Below, one piece after another: positions 20,648 through 52,291 of a stretch of DNA of 64,000 nt; position 1 is the first letter of the stretch, and each line of letters starts with the position of its first letter. The notes below the pieces were generated by a model, which worked only from the letters and a program-made list of their open reading frames with translations, was not told the origin of the DNA and made no database searches. Made by a program: the position numbers and the translations under genes. Source of the DNA: Pseudoalteromonas sp. '520P1 No. 423' (GTDB lineage: Bacteria; Pseudomonadota; Gammaproteobacteria; Enterobacterales; Alteromonadaceae); contig NZ_BBZB01000001.1 of assembly GCF_001269985.1 (NCBI RefSeq), forward strand, positions 3,906,001 through 3,970,000, read 5' to 3'.

Positions 20648-22006
20648 ATGGCACAACATTTTGACTATATCGCAATTGGCGGTGGTAGCGGCGGTATCGC
20701 ATCAGCAAATCGTGCTGCAATGCGAGGTGCTAAAGTTGCACTTATTGAAGCTGAACATATGGGTGGAACCTGTGTAAATGTTGGTTGTGTGCCTAAAAAA
20801 GTAATGTGGCATGGCTCTCAAGTAAGAGATGCGATTGAGCTCTATGCACCTGATTATGGCTTTGATGTCGAAATAAAAGATTTTAACTGGTCTAAATTAG
20901 TTGAAAGTAGGGAAGCTTACATAGGTCGTATTCATAAAGGTTATGATAAATATCTAGCGAGTAATGGCGTAACTGTGATCAAAGGTTTTGCTAAATTTGT
21001 TGATAACAAAACAGTAGAAGTAAATGGTGAACTCTACACTGCAGATCACATTTTAATTGCTGTTGGCGGTCGCCCTAGCATTCCAAATATTCCAGGTGCT
21101 GAGTTAGGCATAGATTCAAATGGCTTTTTTGAATTAAACGAGCAACCAAAACGCGTAGCCGTAATTGGTGCTGGTTACATTGCCGTAGAACTTGCTGGTG
21201 TATTACATGGTTTAGGCAGTGAGACACATTTATTTGTACGTAAACACTCGCCATTACGTACCTTTGAGCCATTAATTGTAGATACTTTAACAGATATTAT
21301 GGCTAAAGAAGGGCCAACACTACATACAAATGCAACGCCTTCTAAAGTAACAAAAGAAGAAGATGGCAGTATTACACTTCACCTTGAAAACGGTGAGACA
21401 CACAATGTTGATACATTAATTTGGGCGATTGGTCGTGAGCCAAGCACAGATAAAATCAATATCGAAGCTACTGATGTGACATTAAATGAACGCGGTTTTG
21501 TAAAAGTAGACGAGTATCAAAATACGACAGCTAAAAATATTTATGCTGTGGGTGATATTATGGAAGGCGGTGTTGAACTTACTCCTGTTGCAGTTAAAGC
21601 TGGTCGTTTATTATCGGAGCGTTTATTTAACCCTGAACTACCTAATGCAAAAATGGATTATGACTTAATCCCTACAGTTGTATTCAGTCACCCACCAATT
21701 GGCACAATAGGCTTAACAGAATCACAAGCCATTGAACAATACGGTTCTGATAACGTAAAAGTTTACACTTCAGGTTTTGCAGCTATGTACACAGCTGTCA
21801 CGAGGCACCGTCAAGAATGTAAAATGAAATTAGTTTGTGTGGGCGATGATGAAAAAGTAATGGGCTTACACGGTATTGGTTTCTCGGTAGATGAAATGAT
21901 CCAAGGTTTTGCAGTAGCCATGAAAATGGGCGCAACCAAAGCTGACTTTGATTCTGTTGTAGCTATTCACCCAACAGGCTCTGAAGAATTTGTTACCATG
22001 AGATAA
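20648..22006 (+). CDS. gorA: Glutathione-disulfide reductase
   Basis: NADPH-dependent reduction of oxidised glutathione. 452 residues with FAD-binding [15 protein letters not shown], the redox pair [13 protein letters not shown] (Cys42, Cys47), NADPH-binding [15 protein letters not shown] and the C-terminal AIHPTGSEE active-site His. A good AAGGAA Shine-Dalgarno sequence lies before the ATG. The stop is followed 14 nt later by the long palindrome at 22020-22076. Confidence 0.95.
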
Positions 22007-22019
22007 CATCTAAAATAAT

Positions 22020-22076
22020 AAAAAGGGGTCGGAGTCAATTAGCTCATTTAAAGTTAATTGACTCCGACCCCTTTTT
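22020..22076. repeat. Long palindrome, copy 1 (AAAAAGGGGTCGGAGTCAATTA arms)
   Basis: Two 22-nt perfectly complementary arms (22020-22041 and 22055-22076) flank a 13-nt loop. The core GGGGTCGGAGT is shared with copy 2 at 25959-26006. Placed between convergent gorA and the AztD-like gene, with A and T runs at its ends, it can terminate both. Short repeated palindromes of this type are often REP-like units mobilised by Y1-family transposases. That link is inference. Confidence 0.85.
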
Positions 22077-22088
22077 ATTTATTGATGC

Positions 22089-23384
22089 TTAATGTTCATG
22101 TTCTTCTTCAGATGCAACACCTAACCAAGCTGCTTTAGCTGGTGTAAAATCTAAATCAAAATGACCTAATACTTCTCCTTGATGTAAATCAACAGTCACA
22201 ACTTCTTGACCATGAATAATGTAAATTAACTCATGTGCTTTTGAAGCAACAATTGATGGTTTAGCATCTTCGGCTAAATCAGTAAATAAAGAGATGCGTT
22301 TATCTAATTCCCAGTTATTTTCAGCTGAAAATACATTTAAGTGCCCTGTACTATCAATAATTAAACTATGTTCGTTATGTCCATCAAATCCATATGATAC
22401 TAAAGATACATCTTCACTAGGTTCCCAGTTAAATGCAGTAATTGACTCTTGTGCTAAATCAACTAAAAATAAACCAGCACGAGAGCCCCCTATCATCACA
22501 TCATTTTCAGCACTACCTTTTAATGAACCTATACGCACGCCTTCAGGCATACCTGCCGGATTCGCGATTTTATGTGCAGTAAACACATTACCTTCTTGTT
22601 CAATCGCTAATACACCATCGCCACAGGCAAACGCGATATGATTTTCGGTCTGAAAACTGCCATGTAGCGCTGGACATGTTTCTTCAAATACTTGCTCTTG
22701 ATGAAAGTGATCACCATGTATTTCTAATAAGGCAACTTGCTCAGGTAAACTACTTTCAGAACTAGCATCACGTAAAGTCGTTAAAACAAAATCACCTCTA
22801 ATTTCGGCTGTACCATGCATATAAGTATCAAAGTGATGTTCTGCGATAACACTTTCTTGCTCAATGCTTTCATCACTTAATAAGCTTAAACCCGCATTTG
22901 CACCTGTCTCTTTATCACCATCAAAAAATACAGCGGCTTTATCACCTCGTGGTACATAATGTGTTGGTTTTACATCATTTAATGTAAAACTAGTTAAAGT
23001 AGGAGTATCAAGGTGTTGATCATAGTGATCACCGTGTAATTCTTGCCATACACCACCATCAACAAATTCAACATGATCTACTGAACGTTGAACGGCTACT
23101 GCGTATCTGTTTTCTGGGCTTGCATATAAATATTCAGCTGGATGTGTAATATTTACAGACTCTACAAGTGTATTTTCTTCTAAATCAAAAAAGTGAATAA
23201 CGGCCTGTTCTGCATCAGCTATCGCTAAACGTCCTTTACCTAGCTCTGCATCATGATCATGACCATCGTCTTTGGCGACTGGCGTAGGTTCAATTTCAGT
23301 AATTTTAGTATCACTATCGCCACAACCAATTATTGCCGCTGTAGCACATGTAAGTAATAAGCTTTTTAATGAAATGGTTTTCAT
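22089..23384 (-). CDS. AztD-like zinc metallochaperone lipoprotein
   Basis: Start set at 23384, where AAGGA precedes the ATG. The frame is open to 23417. The 431 residues begin with a lipoprotein signal (AAIIGC, Cys21), then a His/Asp-rich linker (DDGHDHDAE). The propeller follows with GRLAIADAEQAVIHFFDLEE, YAVAVQRS, HGDHYDQHLDTP, AVFFDGDKETGA, MHGTAEIRGDFVLTT, CPALHGSFQTE and FACGDGVL. It ends in EEEHEH. This order resembles AztD, the periplasmic propeller that hands zinc to AztC in alpha-proteobacteria. Here no aztABC genes are adjacent. The partner is a TonB receptor transcribed just upstream (27-61 nt gap), suggesting a role in periplasmic zinc handling. Confidence 0.75.
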   Translation of the reverse strand: MKTISLKSLLLTCATAAIIGCGDSDTKITEIEPTPVAKDDGHDHDAELGKGRLAIADAEQAVIHFFDLEENTLVESVNITHPAEYLYASPENRYAVAVQRSVDHVEFVDGGVWQELHGDHYDQHLDTPTLTSFTLNDVKPTHYVPRGDKAAVFFDGDKETGANAGLSLLSDESIEQESVIAEHHFDTYMHGTAEIRGDFVLTTLRDASSESSLPEQVALLEIHGDHFHQEQVFEETCPALHGSFQTENHIAFACGDGVLAIEQEGNVFTAHKIANPAGMPEGVRIGSLKGSAENDVMIGGSRAGLFLVDLAQESITAFNWEPSEDVSLVSYGFDGHNEHSLIIDSTGHLNVFSAENNWELDKRISLFTDLAEDAKPSIVASKAHELIYIIHGQEVVTVDLHQGEVLGHFDLDFTPAKAAWLGVASEEEHEH

Positions 23385-23444
23385 GATTTTCCTTAAAGTT
23401 AATGTGTGAGCCCACAATATTGTGGGCGTTAAATAAGAGTGAAA

Positions 23445-25835
23445 CTAAAATGTGCCACGTAAGCCAAGCACAATTGCACGCCCAGCTAATGGCGTAAGGT
23501 CTTTTAAGAAAGAAGTATGCACTTGCGCATATTCATCAGTTAAATTATTAAGCTTGATGTAAGCTGAAAGATCATAATCAGCTACGTTAAAATGATAATT
23601 AGCGTTAGCATCAACCATGACATAGCTATCGGTTGTACTTTCAAGTGCTGCTATATGTGTTTGTTCAAAGTAATGGCTCACAAATAGATCCGCAGAAATA
23701 ACCTCACCTTGATAACTCAGTTCTGTTGCAATACGTGCAGGTGGTGTACGTGGTAATTCTGACCCTGAATTTAAACGAGCACGAATAATATCTCCTTGAA
23801 CTTTCCAAGAAAATGCATCTGTAACCTGCCAAATAGCTTGTGCTTCAAAGCCATGCAAAGTGACATCTTTAGCTGAAAATGCATATAAAGGTAAAGTATG
23901 TTCTTCCTCACCTTCATGATCACCATGATCGTGCCCACTATGATCATGACCATCACTTGCAGAAAAACCAGTTGCTTGTTCGTAATAGTAATCGTCTATT
24001 TGGTTATAGAATGCATTTAAGATAAAACCAAAATCACCTTTAAATTTACGAAGGCTTAAATCAATATTACTGGCCGTTTCCATCACAATATCTTGTTCAG
24101 TTAAACCAAAATGTGCTTCTTCATCATTATGTAACTCAAACAAAGCTCCTACTTCATATGAGCGAGTGCCAATATGAGGGCCAAACGATAATAACTCTGC
24201 TGCAGAGGGTGCACGCTCTGAATGAGATAAAGATAAGCCTATGTTATAACCATCAGTAAAGTCCCACACTAATCCTGCAGATAAACTCACTGGCGTAAAC
24301 GTATGCTTTACATCAAAGTTGCGGGTATCACCTGATGTTTCATGCTCATGCTCATGCTCATGCTCATGCTCATGCTCATGCTCATGCTCATGCTCATGCT
24401 CATCAGTATGTTCAGAGAATAGCTCAACACTTGGCAAGCGCACTTTGTTTGCTATGATTTCAGTGCGTTCAACACGTGCACCTAACTGCAATAAAACATC
24501 GCCAAAATGACGCTCTTCTATCCAAGCTAGCGCCATTGTTTCTGACTCTGATGGCGGAGTGAATGCTTCAGCACCCACAGCTTCAAAATCACTTTTCTTA
24601 TAATGAAAACTAAAGCCACCACGCCAATCAAACATATCTTGGTGCAATAACTCAAAACGCATTTCTAAAGATTCATTATCGAAAGTAGTACCAACGACAC
24701 CTAACTCAACTTCACTATGTCGATAATCTGTATAGGCTAATTTAGTATTAAGTGACTTTATCACTGTGTTATCAAAATTAAGTTCACTTAACATTTGCCA
24801 ACGGTTTTGCTCTAAATCAGCAAATACCGCGATATCTTCATCGCCATGACTATGGCCAGGGATACCATATTCTTGCTCTAAGTTCTGATAGGAAAAACCA
24901 ACGTATCCATTATCAAGTAAATAACTTGACCCTAAAGTAAAACCGCTTGATTGAGCCGCTGAGTTTTCTACTTCATCAACACCATTTTTTTCTGGTGTTT
25001 GGTAGTTTTCACTCTCACGATAAAAACCATCCACATGAACAGCAACATTACCAGCGCCGCTAGTAAATGAACCCGATACTAACTCTTGATCGTTATTACT
25101 ATTATATTCTGCTAACCATTCGCCTTTGGTGTCTGTACTTGTTGGAATGCGATCATCAACAATATTTACAACACCACCAATTGCACCGCTGCCATAAAAA
25201 AGCGTTGCTGGTCCACGAAGTACTTCAATGCGTTCACTTGATGACGTTTCTGTAGACACTGCATGATCTGGGCCTACACGAGAAGCATCTCCAGCATCTA
25301 AACCATTTTGAGTGATTAATACTCTAGGTCCATCTAAACCACGAATAATTGGCGTACCAGCTACCCCACCATGAAAATTACTATGGACACCGACTTCTTT
25401 ACTTAAAGTATCACCCAAAGTATTAGCTTGGCGCATACGTAAAGTTTCGCCATGTAAAACCGTAATGGGTAAGGCTGATTCTATATTTGAGCTATGAAAA
25501 GGCGTGGCACTGACATCAATGATTTCAATGGCAGATTTATCAAGCTGTATATTCGCTTGTGTGTTTTTATTATCACTAACTTCTAAAGCTATATTTTCAT
25601 GGGCAAAGTTATTTGCAACGATATGCAACTCATAACGACCGGGTTTTACTTCTAAACTGAATACACCTTGCTCATTTGTGCGGGTAAAAGTATTAGTACC
25701 AACTACTTTTACAATTGCACCAGCAATTACTTCTCCACTATTTACAGTAACCTTTCCTTGTACTTGCTCTGCATAAACCTGGCTGCTTGCACTAATAGCA
25801 AGTAATGAACTCATAATTCGTGATAACTTTTTCAT
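23445..25835 (-). CDS. His-rich TonB-dependent receptor, probably for zinc
   Basis: 796 residues. Order: signal peptide (1-22), a carboxypeptidase-regulatory-like beta domain (~24-100), a plug domain (~115-230) and a 22-strand-type barrel ending in GTF. Two extracellular-loop-like stretches are very rich in His: ten Glu-His repeats near residues 478-498, encoded by a perfect hexamer repeat, and DGHDHSGHDHGDHEGEEEH near 627-646. Such loops are seen in ZnuD-type zinc receptors. A Zur-like palindrome lies ~55 nt upstream and an AztD-like lipoprotein follows, both supporting zinc. Copper or another metal is not excluded. Confidence 0.85.
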   Translation of the reverse strand: MKKLSRIMSSLLAISASSQVYAEQVQGKVTVNSGEVIAGAIVKVVGTNTFTRTNEQGVFSLEVKPGRYELHIVANNFAHENIALEVSDNKNTQANIQLDKSAIEIIDVSATPFHSSNIESALPITVLHGETLRMRQANTLGDTLSKEVGVHSNFHGGVAGTPIIRGLDGPRVLITQNGLDAGDASRVGPDHAVSTETSSSERIEVLRGPATLFYGSGAIGGVVNIVDDRIPTSTDTKGEWLAEYNSNNDQELVSGSFTSGAGNVAVHVDGFYRESENYQTPEKNGVDEVENSAAQSSGFTLGSSYLLDNGYVGFSYQNLEQEYGIPGHSHGDEDIAVFADLEQNRWQMLSELNFDNTVIKSLNTKLAYTDYRHSEVELGVVGTTFDNESLEMRFELLHQDMFDWRGGFSFHYKKSDFEAVGAEAFTPPSESETMALAWIEERHFGDVLLQLGARVERTEIIANKVRLPSVELFSEHTDEHEHEHEHEHEHEHEHEHEHETSGDTRNFDVKHTFTPVSLSAGLVWDFTDGYNIGLSLSHSERAPSAAELLSFGPHIGTRSYEVGALFELHNDEEAHFGLTEQDIVMETASNIDLSLRKFKGDFGFILNAFYNQIDDYYYEQATGFSASDGHDHSGHDHGDHEGEEEHTLPLYAFSAKDVTLHGFEAQAIWQVTDAFSWKVQGDIIRARLNSGSELPRTPPARIATELSYQGEVISADLFVSHYFEQTHIAALESTTDSYVMVDANANYHFNVADYDLSAYIKLNNLTDEYAQVHTSFLKDLTPLAGRAIVLGLRGTF
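24341..24400. repeat. Perfect hexanucleotide repeat, ten units of CATGCT
   Basis: Ten uninterrupted copies inside the TonB receptor gene. On the coding strand the unit is GAGCAT, giving (Glu-His)n. Because the unit is 6 bp, copy-number change keeps the frame and alters only the length of the metal-binding loop. Confidence 0.97.
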
Positions 25836-25889
25836 GATGCCTCTTATAAATAGACTTTACAAAGTGTGATAACATAATAATTTTCGCAA

Positions 25890-25910
25890 GATGTTATGTT
25901 ATAACATTTT
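25890..25910. promoter_or_regulatory. Zur-like operator upstream of the zinc receptor
   Basis: ATGTTATGTTATAACAT at 25891-25907 on the + strand (AAAATGTTATAACATAACAT on the coding strand) lies ~55-75 nt upstream of the TonB receptor start. It matches the general gammaproteobacterial Zur pattern of an ATGTTATA-type dyad. A weaker related sequence (GATAACATAATA) occurs at 25868-25879. Pattern match by eye only. Confidence 0.6.
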
Positions 25911-25958
25911 AAACATCAACAGATATCGTATATTTTTATGAAAAAATTACCAAAAACA

Positions 25959-26006
25959 AAAAAGGGGTCGGAGTTAATTAAAATTAATTAACTCCGACCC
26001 CTTTTT
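25959..26006. repeat. Long palindrome, copy 2 (GGGGTCGGAGTTAATTAA arms)
   Basis: 23-nt arms (25959-25981 and 25984-26006) around a 2-nt spacer. They carry the same AAAAGGGGTCGGAGTYAATTA core as copy 1 at 22020-22076. A partial echo of the arm end (ACGACCCCTTTTTA) follows at 26007-26020. It lies just past the stop of the LysR gene (26033) and upstream of the zinc receptor promoter. Confidence 0.85.
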
Positions 26007-26032: not shown

Positions 26033-26938
26033 TTACAAATAGTTGTTAAAGTTAGTTTTTACAAATTCTATAAACCTCTTAAGCTTATTTGGCATAAACT
26101 TATTTTGCACATAAACCATATACAAAGGTGTATCGGGGATTTCCCATTCATCAAATACAGAGACTAGTTCCCCACTTTCGAGTTCCTGCTTACAATAAAG
26201 CGCAGGCAACCTAGCAATACCATTATCAGCCAAAGCATTTATCAACATAGCTCTACCATTTTTACATTGAAACTGCCCTTCTATTGCAATATCGACTTTA
26301 ATTGAAGTATCTAATGTATTTGAAAAGCTCCAATGTTTAACTGAGCCTGTAATACATTGGTGATTTTTCAAATCTTTTGGATGAATTAATTTTTCATTAT
26401 TTGCTATATACTTAGGAGTCGCCAAAGTCTTTATTGGAAGATCTGTGAGCTTACGGCATATCAAACTAGAATCTTGTAATTGACCCATTCTAAAAACTAA
26501 ATCAAACTCACCAGATATTAAATCAACTCTTCGACTACTAAAATCTAAATTAATATTTACCTGTGGATGCAACTGAGTAAAATCACTTATTAATTTAGTG
26601 ATCAACTCCTCGCCAATCACCCCACCTATACAGTTAATATTTAACGTACCCGTTATAACACCAGAACTTTCAACTACCTGCTCAATGGCATTATCTATGG
26701 CTAATAGCCCTTGGCTTATTTGCTCATAAAATAACTTGCCTTGCTCAGTTAACTTTTGAGAACGTGTTGTTCGAGTGATCAACTTCACACCTAAACTAGC
26801 CTCTAATTTGTTAAGTTGTTTTGATAAGTGAGAACGCGAACATAAGAGTAATTCACTTACGGCAGTAAAACTACCATGTTGTGCAATCAAAGCAAAAGCT
26901 CTTATATCTTCTAAATTAATATTTTTTTTTATTGCCAT
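26033..26938 (-). CDS. LysR family transcriptional regulator
   Basis: 301 residues. The N-terminal winged helix reads LEDIRAFALIAQHGSFTAVS and then SRSHLSKQLNKLEASLGVKL (residues ~7-55). The effector domain follows, of the group often found next to oxidoreductase genes. It is divergent from the SDR gene at 27067 with 128 bp between starts, a layout typical of LysR proteins that control the divergent neighbour. Inducer unknown. Confidence 0.92.
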   Translation of the reverse strand: MAIKKNINLEDIRAFALIAQHGSFTAVSELLLCSRSHLSKQLNKLEASLGVKLITRTTRSQKLTEQGKLFYEQISQGLLAIDNAIEQVVESSGVITGTLNINCIGGVIGEELITKLISDFTQLHPQVNINLDFSSRRVDLISGEFDLVFRMGQLQDSSLICRKLTDLPIKTLATPKYIANNEKLIHPKDLKNHQCITGSVKHWSFSNTLDTSIKVDIAIEGQFQCKNGRAMLINALADNGIARLPALYCKQELESGELVSVFDEWEIPDTPLYMVYVQNKFMPNKLKRFIEFVKTNFNNYL

Positions 26939-27066
26939 TTAAGAACAAAACCAATTAGAACTCATATGTAAACAATGATATTACTTTAACGCCATATATC
27001 AACAATAAACATATCCATATAATACTCCCATCAAAACGAAATTCATCAATTTAAAAGAGAATTCAT

Positions 27067-27786
27067 ATGAAAAAATTAATCGTAATTACAGGCGCAAGTT
27101 CAGGTATCGGCGAAGCAATAGCAAAACACTTTAGTGACTTAGGCCACCCTCTTTTACTTATTGCTCGCAGATTAGAAAATCTAATAGCTCTTAATCTACC
27201 AAACACTTTATGTGAACAGGTTGATATTACTAACAAGGCAACATTTGAAACAGCAATAGAAAAAGCACAAGCATTATATGGCCCTGTTGATTGTTTAGTT
27301 AATAACGCTGGCGTAATGTTATTAGGCCAAGTAAGTGACCAAGCAGCATCGGAGTGGCAAACTATGTTTGATGTGAACGTAATGGGTTTATTAAATGGCA
27401 TGCAAACTGTTTTAGCGCCTATGATCAAAGCTAATACAGGTACTATTATCAATATCAGTTCAATTGCTGGACGAAAAACATTTGGTAATCATGCAGCATA
27501 TTGCGGAACTAAATTTGCAGTACATGCTATTTCAGAAAATATTAGAGAAGAAGTTGCAGACTCAAATGTACGTATAATAACAATTGCTCCTGGTGCAGTT
27601 GAAACTGAGCTTTTATCACACACTACATCTGATGAAATTAAGGATGGTTATGAATCTTGGAAAGAAAGCATGGGTGGTGTAATTTCGCCAGATGATATCG
27701 CAAATACAGTGACTTTTGCTTATAACCAACCGCAAAATATTTGTATTAGAGAGATAGTGGTTGCTGCAACAAAACAACAACCTTAA
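27067..27786 (+). CDS. Short-chain dehydrogenase/reductase (classical SDR)
   Basis: 239 residues. The NAD(P)-binding motif TGASSGIGEA is at residues 8-17, with NNAGVM, a catalytic Ser in NISSIAG, and Tyr145/Lys149 in YCGTK. The basic pair RR after the second strand (LLIARRLENL) suggests NADP(H) preference. Similar proteins are annotated as YdfG-like oxidoreductases, but the substrate cannot be read from the sequence. Probably regulated by the divergent LysR protein. Confidence 0.92.
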   Translation: MKKLIVITGASSGIGEAIAKHFSDLGHPLLLIARRLENLIALNLPNTLCEQVDITNKATFETAIEKAQALYGPVDCLVNNAGVMLLGQVSDQAASEWQTMFDVNVMGLLNGMQTVLAPMIKANTGTIINISSIAGRKTFGNHAAYCGTKFAVHAISENIREEVADSNVRIITIAPGAVETELLSHTTSDEIKDGYESWKESMGGVISPDDIANTVTFAYNQPQNICIREIVVAATKQQP

Positions 27787-30416: not shown

Positions 30417-32291
30417 TTATAAGCGGTAATCAATACCCACAAAGAAATGACGCTCAGCAGTATTATAATAAGAAATTTCAGAAGTACCCCAGTCTTGAGA
30501 AGACTCAGCAGCCTGATATTCCTTATCAAATAAGTTTTCTACTCTTACTTTAGCTGATAAATCATCGTTGATTTGATAAGTTGCCGCTAGATTCCATAAA
30601 GTATATGAACTTAATTCATTTAAGCTAAAATCAGCATTGTAATATTTACCGGGGCGACTTGAGCGATATTGAAAATCAAGTGCAACATTCACTTGCTGCC
30701 AGCCTTTAGAAACAGCCCAATTAAATACCTTATCTGATTGATTAGCCAAGTCAGCACCAGTTACATCATTAACTGCATCTGTGTAAGTTAAGTTGATATC
30801 ATTGTTAAAACCGAAAACTTGGTAGCTTGCTGTTATTTCAAAGCCTTGCATCGTTGCTGAACCAATATTTGAAGGTTTCCAAACATTAGGGTCTTCAACT
30901 GTTGGTGCCCAGTCAATTAAGTTTGTTACTTCATTATTATATATAGCCACATCATAACTTGCATTGTCTAAATCTAAACGAAAGCCAAATTCAAGATTAA
31001 CTGACTCTTCAGGCTCTAAGGCATCATTACCTAAACCTGGGTAATATAAATCATTAAAGCTAGGCGCTTTAAAACCCATATTACGGCTTAAACGGAATGT
31101 CGCTTTTTCCGTCACTTTCATACCTAGTGCAGCGTTATAGGTAAATGCACTACCATATTGGTCATCTTTATCATTTCTAAGTGATAAGTTTGCTAAATAA
31201 TCTTCATAATTAAAATAAGCACCAGCAAAAATAGCTAATACATCACGTGATTGTTTATCATATGCTTGGGTTGTTTCACTTACATCTTCTTCATACCAAT
31301 TAAAACCACCATTTACCGTCAAAGCTTCAGAATATTCATGATTTGCGAGGTAATCAACTTGTACACGATCCGTTTCATATTGACTATCAGGTGTCGCAGC
31401 ACCATCCCACTCAATACCACCTTGGTTTAAATCACTGTCTTGTGATACTGATAGGTCTATATTATGAGTTACATCTTTATGAATTTTATTAAAACCTAGT
31501 TTCAAAAAGTAGTTTTCAAACTCTACGAAATCATTTCCACCAAAAGCTGTATCGTATTTCGTTTCACCTTCACTGTATTGAGCAACTAAAGATAGAGCAC
31601 TATCATCACTTAATGTATAATCTAAGTTCAAACCTAAGTTAAGATTTTCATAACCATCATCATCTTTATCTGAGCCTTCAGCAGCATCAAAACCATCAGT
31701 TTTTTCAAAACCGGCATTTAACGATAGCTTATAAGTTTTAGTGTTAATGTTACTCGTAGCTTGTATATTTTGATAATTATTATTACCTGCAGTTGCGCTA
31801 AGCTGAGTACCTTCGCCTTTACGTGTAATAATATTAATAACACCGGCAATGGCATCAGAACCATATTGTGCAGCTCGAGAGCCTTTTACAATTTCAATAC
31901 GCTCAACTGTATTTAAAGGTAAATTAGCGATATTTTTATAACCTAAAGTTGCAGACCCAATACGAATACCATCAACTAAAATTAAGCTATGCTTAGTTTG
32001 CGCACCGCGCAGTAATATTGAACTTGTTTGTCCGAAGCCACCTTTACGATCAATTTGAATGCCCGCTTGGCTATTTAATAAAGTGACCAAGTCTCTCGCG
32101 TTGCTTGCATCAATATCAGTACGATTAATGACTGATACACTTGCTAAAGTATCTGCAATTGATTGAGATGTGCGGTTTGCAGTAACAGTAATATGCTCAA
32201 GGTTGTCACCCGCTTGAGCCACTACCATTGAAGAAGAAAATATAGAGATCGCAGATACAACAGCTAAGGCTGCTTTAGATTTATTGAACAT
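30417..32291 (-). CDS. btuB: TonB-dependent vitamin B12 receptor
   Basis: Start at 32291, where GGAG sits 6 nt upstream. The frame is open to 32318. 624 residues: signal peptide (about 1-26), TonB box region LEHITVTANR, plug (~40-150, with GSRAAQYGSDAIAGVINI) and a barrel ending in YRL. Assignment to B12 rests on the cobalamin riboswitch directly upstream and on overall BtuB-like size and plug. No other cobalamin transport gene is adjacent. Confidence 0.9.
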   Translation of the reverse strand: MFNKSKAALAVVSAISIFSSSMVVAQAGDNLEHITVTANRTSQSIADTLASVSVINRTDIDASNARDLVTLLNSQAGIQIDRKGGFGQTSSILLRGAQTKHSLILVDGIRIGSATLGYKNIANLPLNTVERIEIVKGSRAAQYGSDAIAGVINIITRKGEGTQLSATAGNNNYQNIQATSNINTKTYKLSLNAGFEKTDGFDAAEGSDKDDDGYENLNLGLNLDYTLSDDSALSLVAQYSEGETKYDTAFGGNDFVEFENYFLKLGFNKIHKDVTHNIDLSVSQDSDLNQGGIEWDGAATPDSQYETDRVQVDYLANHEYSEALTVNGGFNWYEEDVSETTQAYDKQSRDVLAIFAGAYFNYEDYLANLSLRNDKDDQYGSAFTYNAALGMKVTEKATFRLSRNMGFKAPSFNDLYYPGLGNDALEPEESVNLEFGFRLDLDNASYDVAIYNNEVTNLIDWAPTVEDPNVWKPSNIGSATMQGFEITASYQVFGFNNDINLTYTDAVNDVTGADLANQSDKVFNWAVSKGWQQVNVALDFQYRSSRPGKYYNADFSLNELSSYTLWNLAATYQINDDLSAKVRVENLFDKEYQAAESSQDWGTSEISYYNTAERHFFVGIDYRL

Positions 32292-32359
32292 GTTTGCTCC
32301 ATTGTGCCCACCGCACAAATTTAAAGTATTTAAGGATTAAGTCTCGTGTTACTAGTAAA

Positions 32360-47434: not shown

Positions 47435-47785
47435 TTAGTTTTGCAAATATTTTCGAATTGTATCTTCCGTTGCATTTCCAATTGTTTCAACGAAATAACT
47501 CTGAGTCCAAAGTTTACCTCCCCAGAAATAACATTTTTTGATATCTGGGTATAATTTGAAAAACTCTCTGGCTGAAATACTTTTTATCACCTGCATGATC
47601 TGACTTGGTTAAATCTTTGGCTCACTTCTTACCACCATATGAATATGGTCTTCAGGTTTTTCCAATTCGACTATATCTATATCGTAGTCATAGCCAATTT
47701 TTTTAATTATAATTTTTATCGCTTCACGCTAAGGCTCAGAAAAAACTTTACGTCGATACTTAGGTATCCACACAAAGTAATACAT
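47435..47785 (-). pseudogene. IS200/IS605 TnpA remnant (copy 1)
   Basis: The reading from 47785 is YYFVWIPKYRRKVFSEP, a stop, REAIKIIIKKIGYDYDIDIV, then ELEKPEDHIHMVVRSEPKI (HUH-like HIHM), another stop, and SQIMQVIKSISAREFFKLYP, WGGKLWTQSYFVETIGNATE DTIRKYLQN. Two in-frame stops and a missing N-terminus make it inactive. The ~360 bp that follow, 47786-48144, hold hairpins (e.g. GACTGAGGCAAGCTCAGTC at 47840-47858) typical of IS200 ends and otherwise no gene. Confidence 0.85.
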
Positions 47786-48144
47786 TAGTCTGAAAACATG
47801 ATGAGAATTTCTTTAAAGTTTCATGTAGTGGATACGACAGACTGAGGCAAGCTCAGTCTACACTATTGAGCACGGGTGCAAGCCCCCAGGATTTTTCGCT
47901 ACGCTCTATTAAATTTAGCTATTGAAATATAAAACGAATATTTTAAGAGGAAAGAAGCCCACTAGGGTAAGCAAGTGAGCTAAAACGAAGCTAAATAATA
48001 TTCCGTTATGAGCTTCTTCATGAAACAAGTTAAGTATAGCTGATTTAAATAGTTTACACCTAAAGCATCTACAAAATTAATGAGAAATTATTATCAATAC
48101 AATAAAACTGTAACTTATAAAGTTAACAGCTCACTTTTTGTTTA

Positions 48145-51861: not shown

Positions 51862-52291
51862 TTAAATTCCAAATTTCAGTTGAGCTCGATGCTCATCTAC
51901 TTTTTCTTGATTTCGAATATACTCAATCACCATATTTTCATCCAAACCTATCGTAGAAACAAAATACCCTCTAGCCCAGAAATTTTCACCATTGAAGTTT
52001 CGTTGCTTTCCTCTAAAGTTTTTTGCTATCGAAATCGCGCTTTTACCTTTTATATAACCAACAATTGTTGAAACTGAAAATTTTGGTGGAATACTAATTC
52101 ACATATGAACATGATCTTTCATCAAGTGTCCTACTTCTATAATAACGCCTTTTCGTTTTGCTAATTCATGAAAAGTGTCACCTAAATGTTCTTATTGCTC
52201 CATATATCAATTTTTGACATTTTTTAGGAATAAAAACGATATGGTACTTACAATCCCATCTTGTATGGGTCAAACTTTTATAATCTCGCAT
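51862..52291 (-). pseudogene. IS200/IS605 TnpA remnant (copy 2)
   Basis: The start at 52291 reads MRDYKSLTHTRWDCKYHIVF IPKK, the TnpA N-terminus, then drops out of frame around 52180-52200. Later frames recover VIIEVGHLMKDHVHM, a stop, ISIPPKFSVSTIVGYIKGKS, NGENFWARGYFVSTIGLDEN and EHRAQLKFGI with TAA at 51862-51864. Inactive. Copy 2 differs in sequence from copy 1, so they are two separate insertions. The 51712-52382 gap contains this remnant and no other gene. Confidence 0.85.

Follow-up and report, generated by a model that had tools for sequence, protein, structure and literature searches.

Two described zinc proteins stand closest to the gene pair considered here, the TonB-dependent receptor ZnuD (TdfJ) of Neisseria and the propeller protein AztD of Paracoccus denitrificans and Citrobacter koseri. 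To our knowledge the periplasmic acceptor of zinc released by a TonB-dependent receptor is unclear. A 64,000-nucleotide stretch of the Pseudoalteromonas sp. '520P1 No. 423' genome (the window; G000:C1:3906001-3970000, in a genome of 5.39 Mb on two contigs) carries, between gor and a LysR gene, two minus-strand genes encoding relatives of both proteins, a ZnuD-type receptor and an AztD-like lipoprotein (Table 1). The best account of the pair, and in our judgement a probable one, is a predicted Zur-repressed two-gene operon for zinc scavenging in which the lipoprotein is an AztD-type acceptor. One predicted operon would then join a receptor to a candidate acceptor whose zinc-site chemistry is known.

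ZnuD (PDB 4rdr, 4rdt, 4rvw) has four buried zinc ligands, His-rich outer loops and Zur control, and the accessible text of PMC4557270 gives Asp-99, His-100, Glu-340 and His-499 as its high-affinity zinc site. AztD (PDB 6ck1, 6cmk, 6n01) combines a propeller fold with a His triad (site 1), an HGDHxD hairpin with a C-terminal His (site 2) and paired cysteines, all of which recur in the window lipoprotein. In the accessible text of PMC6689063 the P. denitrificans protein is reported to be under Zur control, and nearly half of the AztD sequences surveyed are associated with a ZnuA-family solute-binding protein (SBP); about half are thus without one, and AztD without AztABC, which the earlier note on this DNA stressed, is not new in itself. 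A receptor/AztD-like lipoprotein pair was not found described in the open-access literature, including the accessible portions of PMC5387054 and PMC6103462, which is not proof of absence; neither a ZnuD receptor with a lipoprotein partner nor AztD apart from a cluster A-I SBP was found there.

The receptor and the lipoprotein

Pfam assigns the receptor a plug, a barrel and, at residues 24-98, an N-terminal CarboxypepD_reg domain. Its best NCBIfam model is ZnuD (NF038289; 322.4 bits, cut-off 950), and N. meningitidis ZnuD is its sole solved-structure match at E<=1e-10. When the two are aligned (chain numbering offset 14) the four ZnuD ligands fall on D190, H191, E375 and H554, which are identical in all 16 receptors aligned, from 21 available. 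The two His-rich stretches start at residues 469 and 627, and the first, a His-Glu loop, is the product of a TCATGC repeat (Table 1); this loop falls below the same His threshold in two related loci, L015 and L016, where the second loop passes. The receptor differs from ZnuD in scoring below the ZnuD cut-off, in having a lipoprotein partner gene and in its N-terminal domain, to which solved ZnuD does not align (the alignment begins only at residue 120). This domain, which may be a periplasmic one of the kind known from SusC, is present in all 120 listed of 4175 receptor relatives (PF13715 in 120/120 and PF13620 in 119/120, counted by eye).

By eye, the lipoprotein shows a lipobox-like Cys (residue 21), and its N-terminus is His-rich. 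It matches the AztD model NF038015 with 92.6 bits (E 1.9e-26; curated cut-off 400), as do 30 of 30 lipoprotein relatives at E<=0.001; its top solved-structure matches are AztD crystal sequences, and its predicted fold is the AztD propeller, with ~20% identity over the fold. Both proteins are thus of the kinds that the earlier note had proposed from the translations, a His-rich TonB receptor followed by an AztD-like lipoprotein, although the latter lies below the AztD cut-off. Unlike AztD it is a lipoprotein, and its gene is linked to that of an outer-membrane receptor rather than to aztABC; the annotated aztABCD cluster of Shinella provides the contrast.

Site 1 of the P. denitrificans protein (His124, His167, His218) corresponds to H142, H190 and H241, present in 30/30 sequences of an alignment of lipoproteins (A1) whose rows were fetched with short peptide patterns, favouring some motifs. 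Site 2 (His99, His102, Asp104 and C-terminal His408) corresponds to H117, H120, D122 and a C-terminal EHEH; H117 and H120 are kept in 28/30 sequences and D122 in 16/30, with His instead in 12. L020 and L045 (receptor-paired) and L033, L038 and L042 (unpaired) were left out of A1, and a profile search covering 158 genomes in the order supplied 11 proteins besides that of the window. Receptor-paired proteins have both an intact site-1 triad and an intact site-2 His pair in 24/24 cases (19 in A1, five profile-found), unpaired ones in 9/17. After copies at least 95% identical are merged (L109 is identical to L018; L032/L048, L036/L046 and L116/L117 each share at least 97% identity) the counts are 23/23 and 7/14. 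Site-1 residues are wholly or partly lost in L118-L120, the members from G036, G102 and G128.

These counts bear on whether the lipoprotein could be a periplasmic zinc store or buffer only, without directed transfer, a reading that we regard as unlikely. Lipoprotein copies without a receptor exist, and P. denitrificans mutants described in the accessible parts of PMC6689063 and PMC7731109 suggest that AztD accumulates periplasmic zinc and is not growth-critical; however, the 23 distinct receptor-paired proteins have all retained the transfer-type site-2 His pair, which fits transfer but is not proof of it.

A second HGDH-type beta-hairpin, HxDHxH, lies at residues 223-228 (region 223-230) of the window lipoprotein and is absent from the P. 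denitrificans and C. koseri proteins. H223, D225, H226, H228 and E230 occur in 30/30 sequences of A1, a count inflated because the fetch patterns included HGDHFHQE. The full hairpin is found in only 4/11 profile-found proteins (L109, L112, L116, L117) and is missing from four of the five receptor-paired ones (L111, L113, L114, L115), so its invariance across the family was rejected and we regard it as characteristic of a clade. L112, L116 and L117, which are SBP-linked, keep this second hairpin and have lost the first, AztD-type transfer hairpin. The family is misannotated as 5-methyltetrahydrofolate--homocysteine methyltransferase in L143, L145 and other Alteromonadales records, a misleading public name that the fold and family matches contradict.

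Gene pairing, Zur-like boxes and binding-protein genes

The receptor gene lies directly upstream of the lipoprotein gene in 20/34 related loci, in records from Pseudoalteromonas, Colwellia, Pseudocolwellia, Bowmanella, Alishewanella, Psychrosphaera, Thalassotalea and one further member of the Alteromonadales; no such receptor gene is present in the available flanking DNA of the other 14 (only 0.5 kb upstream in L034). On a tree of 30 proteins the pairing label changes four times, versus 9.2 for shuffled labels. The closest lipoprotein relatives in named genomes are from Pseudoalteromonas; an annotated Catenovulum record carries the same pair, and P. xiamenensis has the lipoprotein without the receptor pair.

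The Zur-like dyad that had been pointed out upstream of the pair is ATGTTATGTTATAACAT, which differs at one position from RTGTTATAWTATAACAY, the sequence we take as the Zur consensus. Seven places in the genome match this consensus at one mismatch, compared with two in a reversed control, and since signal equals control at two mismatches (13 vs 13) only the one-mismatch set was used in the genome. All seven boxes lie directly upstream of plausible Zur targets: a type-B L31 gene preceded by two of them (123.6 bits against a cut-off of 86), a dksA-like gene that stays under its cut-off (99.8 bits against 115.5), zigA with DUF1826 (692.9 bits, cut-off 600), merC-folE2 (FolE2 295.8 bits, cut-off 215), a MacB-like ABC operon with DUF3299, and the receptor/lipoprotein pair, which on this evidence would share a promoter box with known Zur targets. 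A coherent predicted Zur regulon emerges at loci L052, L057, L058, L059 and L060 of this genome, and the MacB-like operon may provide the step that zinc takes at the inner membrane. Downstream of folE2 an open reading frame (L057:491-1483, minus strand) encodes a lipoprotein-like product with an endonuclease/exonuclease/phosphatase domain and an N-terminal (PQHAH)n repeat, and is probably part of the same predicted Zur operon.

A Zur-like box also occurs no more than 200 bp upstream of the unit in 33/34 related loci (17 with one mismatch, seven with two and nine with three); none lies within that distance in L036. The box precedes the receptor gene where the two genes are paired and the lipoprotein gene where they are not. 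Across 526 kb there are 42 matches with at most two mismatches (overlapping ones counted apart) versus a mean of 1.0 in three simulated sets with matching dinucleotide composition.

Members of the ZnuA/AztC SBP family (PF01297) were sought in 14 lipoprotein-carrying genomes, namely those 12 that the profile had found together with G003 and G033. A match at E<=0.001 is absent from eight of them, and from seven of the eight in which receptor and lipoprotein genes are paired (G000, G003, G033, G050, G076, G087, G095, G150); five of the six genomes unpaired within 1.5-kb flanks have at least one match, G128 having none. A Fisher test of pairing against PF01297 gives P 0.026, which, the genomes being related, is a lead and not a statistic. 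The same search matches in 11/14 control genomes and therefore works. The search among relatives that the earlier note had proposed thus recovers the pair repeatedly, in genomes where the usual acceptor is mostly undetected.

The exception among the paired genomes is that of the window, where an SBP encoded at C1:435935 scores best against the AztC model (111 bits, cut-off 350) and the permease of the same importer best against the AztB model (131 bits, cut-off 280). No Zur box with three or fewer mismatches was found in the 17 kb around this importer. The earlier note's 'without AztABC' accordingly holds for the neighbourhood of the pair, where the genes encode the pyridine-nucleotide-disulphide reductase, an M3 peptidase, LysR, SDR and EAL/HDOD proteins, but elsewhere the genome has this one ABC importer, AztC/AztB-like by best scores that lie below cut-off. 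This importer favours a classical role, in which the lipoprotein would hand zinc on to an SBP of AztC/ZnuA type whose gene lies elsewhere, and would share no more than a regulon with the receptor. In the same direction, the lipoprotein gene and a gene for a PF01297 SBP are divergent and ~1.5 kb apart in G046, G072, G092 and Psychromonas L031, the last of which keeps the full site-2 hairpin HGDHxD. We nevertheless give a classical role a small chance only, as the other seven receptor-pair genomes have no PF01297 match and the canonical transfer hairpin is missing from three of the four SBP-adjacent members (L112, L116 and L117, not L031).

A proposed route for zinc

Under a Zur-repressed scavenging operon, zinc scarcity would cause Zur to leave its box and both genes would be expressed. 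The receptor would gather zinc with its His-rich loops, hold it in the conserved D/H/E/H site and move it into the periplasm using TonB energy; the lipoprotein, tethered to the outer membrane on its periplasmic side, would take the ion as it emerges and hold it at the pore and hairpin sites before passing it to the inner-membrane step. The acceptor at that step would be another protein in most of the pair genomes examined, because no ZnuA/AztC-type SBP was found there, and in the window genome the distant AztC-like protein could also serve. We infer zinc as the substrate, binding by Zur, the outer-membrane location, the periplasmic orientation and the hand-off from the genes, the predicted fold, the conserved ligands, the Zur-like boxes, the conserved pairing and the undetected SBPs that were computed. 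Family, predicted fold, conserved ligands and boxes in the window genome and in nearly all related loci support zinc, as the earlier note had proposed. A hand-off from receptor to lipoprotein is consistent with the data, and is made likelier by the SBPs undetected in most pair genomes.

A more specific version, which we put forward tentatively and hold to be possible rather than probable, is a receptor-coupled zinc relay operating without a ZnuA/AztC-type SBP. Beneath the outer membrane, the N-terminal domain of the receptor would dock a dedicated lipoprotein of AztD fold, which would receive zinc directly from the channel and pass it to a different inner-membrane carrier. The pairing makes the passage of zinc from outer to inner membrane testable in laboratory strains of marine bacteria.

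Alternatively, the lipoprotein could be exposed at the cell surface as a co-receptor, catching extracellular zinc and presenting it to the receptor in the manner of TbpB or HpuA. Its operon with a TonB receptor and its His-rich N-terminus agree with such a role, but Gram-negative AztD proteins are described as predominantly periplasmic in the accessible part of PMC6689063, and we rate a surface role as improbable.

Several points weigh against the scavenging operon with an AztD-type acceptor. It is a prediction from sequence; both proteins score far under the cut-offs of their models; the SBP contrast draws on 14 genomes that are related; and the AztC/AztB-like importer leaves the classical route open in the window's own genome. 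The lipoprotein can probably work without the receptor, given the 14 loci lacking one, and its distribution is sporadic (12/158 genomes of the order, 6/71 genera).

Palindromes, relocation and neighbouring genes

The matching palindromes reported on each side of the pair are real (chance expectation 0.00). Their arms are dispersed, with 26 in the genome and none in a reversed control, and lie mostly between open reading frames; among 13 further stretches an arm is inside a reading frame in L010 and L011, and at the end of one or inside it in L003, L005 and L008. One arm pair (C2:635336 and 636124) flanks a gene for a 234-residue Y1_Tnp protein (48.3 bits, cut-off 23). The palindromes thereby resemble REP sequences with their REP-associated tyrosine transposases (RAYT), a dispersed family with a linked Y1_Tnp gene, except that the RAYT-like protein scores below the equivalog cut-off (NF047646; 65.7 bits vs 80). 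The hairpins of both window palindromes have folding energies of -33.9 to -44 kcal/mol, whichever strand is folded, and come with a T run, so that they could terminate transcription of gor and LysR.

The unit is placed differently in the closest relatives. In G033 a palindrome stands behind gor with the pair absent; in G003 a degenerate-looking palindrome (by eye) is found at gor, at a contig end, likewise without the pair. In L015 and L016, inferred to come from the same two species as G033 and G003, the pair adjoins another receptor gene (L015) or lies in inverted orientation ~2 kb from it (L016); in the window genome the orthologue of this other gene (C2:757839, L104) lacks a neighbouring pair. 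Homology between the window and L015 spans 22072-26006, palindrome to palindrome. Both pair genes are closer to G033, whereas five of seven other comparable genes (Gor, Opd, EAL415, TBDR883, P930, but not HNH197 and BtuB633) are closer to G003; the lipoprotein tree also groups the window protein with G033 (support 99/96). Lgt275 has no match in the G033 stretches compared.

Because of this different placement and the closeness of both genes to G033, we read the unit as having moved or been exchanged, with breakpoints at the palindromes on the window side; recombination between palindrome repeats would explain it. A mobile cassette with the two palindromes as its ends, as raised in the earlier note, is a different matter and very improbable. 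The relocated pair, the empty alternative site, the pairless gor palindrome in G033, the palindrome-to-palindrome homology and the discordant affinities of the pair genes all speak for it. However, the 26 arms are dispersed and such cargo is present in none of the 13 other stretches inspected, the degenerate-looking palindrome at gor in G003 is also without the pair, the segment contains only two genes, and the exact arm occurs in just one of 34 other loci with the lipoprotein gene (L015, upstream side only). Palindromes as cassette ends were therefore rejected, while a change of place between sister species stands.

Table 1. Positions of features in the window
Feature	Position	Strand	Remarks
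gor	20648-22006	+	Pyridine-nucleotide-disulphide reductase; name gor assigned by eye
REP-like palindrome	22021-22075		Between convergent gor and lipoprotein gene; bidirectional terminator-like hairpin
AztD-like beta-propeller lipoprotein	22089-23384	-	431 amino acids from ATG at 23384
Second hairpin region, residues 223-230	22695-22718	-	Inside lipoprotein gene
ZnuD-type TonB-dependent receptor	23445-25835	-	796 amino acids; N-terminal CarboxypepD_reg, two His-rich loops
TCATGC hexanucleotide repeat	24340-24403	-	10.7 copies, inside receptor gene; encodes (His-Glu)n loop
Zur-like box	25891-25907		56-72 bp upstream of receptor ATG
Second palindrome copy	25960-26005		3' of LysR gene, upstream of receptor promoter region
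LysR gene	26033-26938	-	Right-hand neighbour of the pair
LysR and SDR genes	26033-27786		Adjoin the pair
Further TonB-dependent receptor	30417-32318	-	Pfam plug and barrel
Y1_Tnp match	47438-47797		IS200-like, internal stop codons
Y1_Tnp match	51907-52200	-	IS200-like, internal stop codons

To the right of the pair, no match to LysR at E<=1e-60 was found in G003 or G033, which suggests that the LysR/SDR side is part of a larger genome-specific stretch. A promoter scan gave eight promoter-like sites, fewer than the 15.1 in shuffles, and was not used. The window also contains two Y1_Tnp matches and a further TonB-dependent receptor, whose best match has 46.5% identity in the G003 stretches compared versus 76% in G033.
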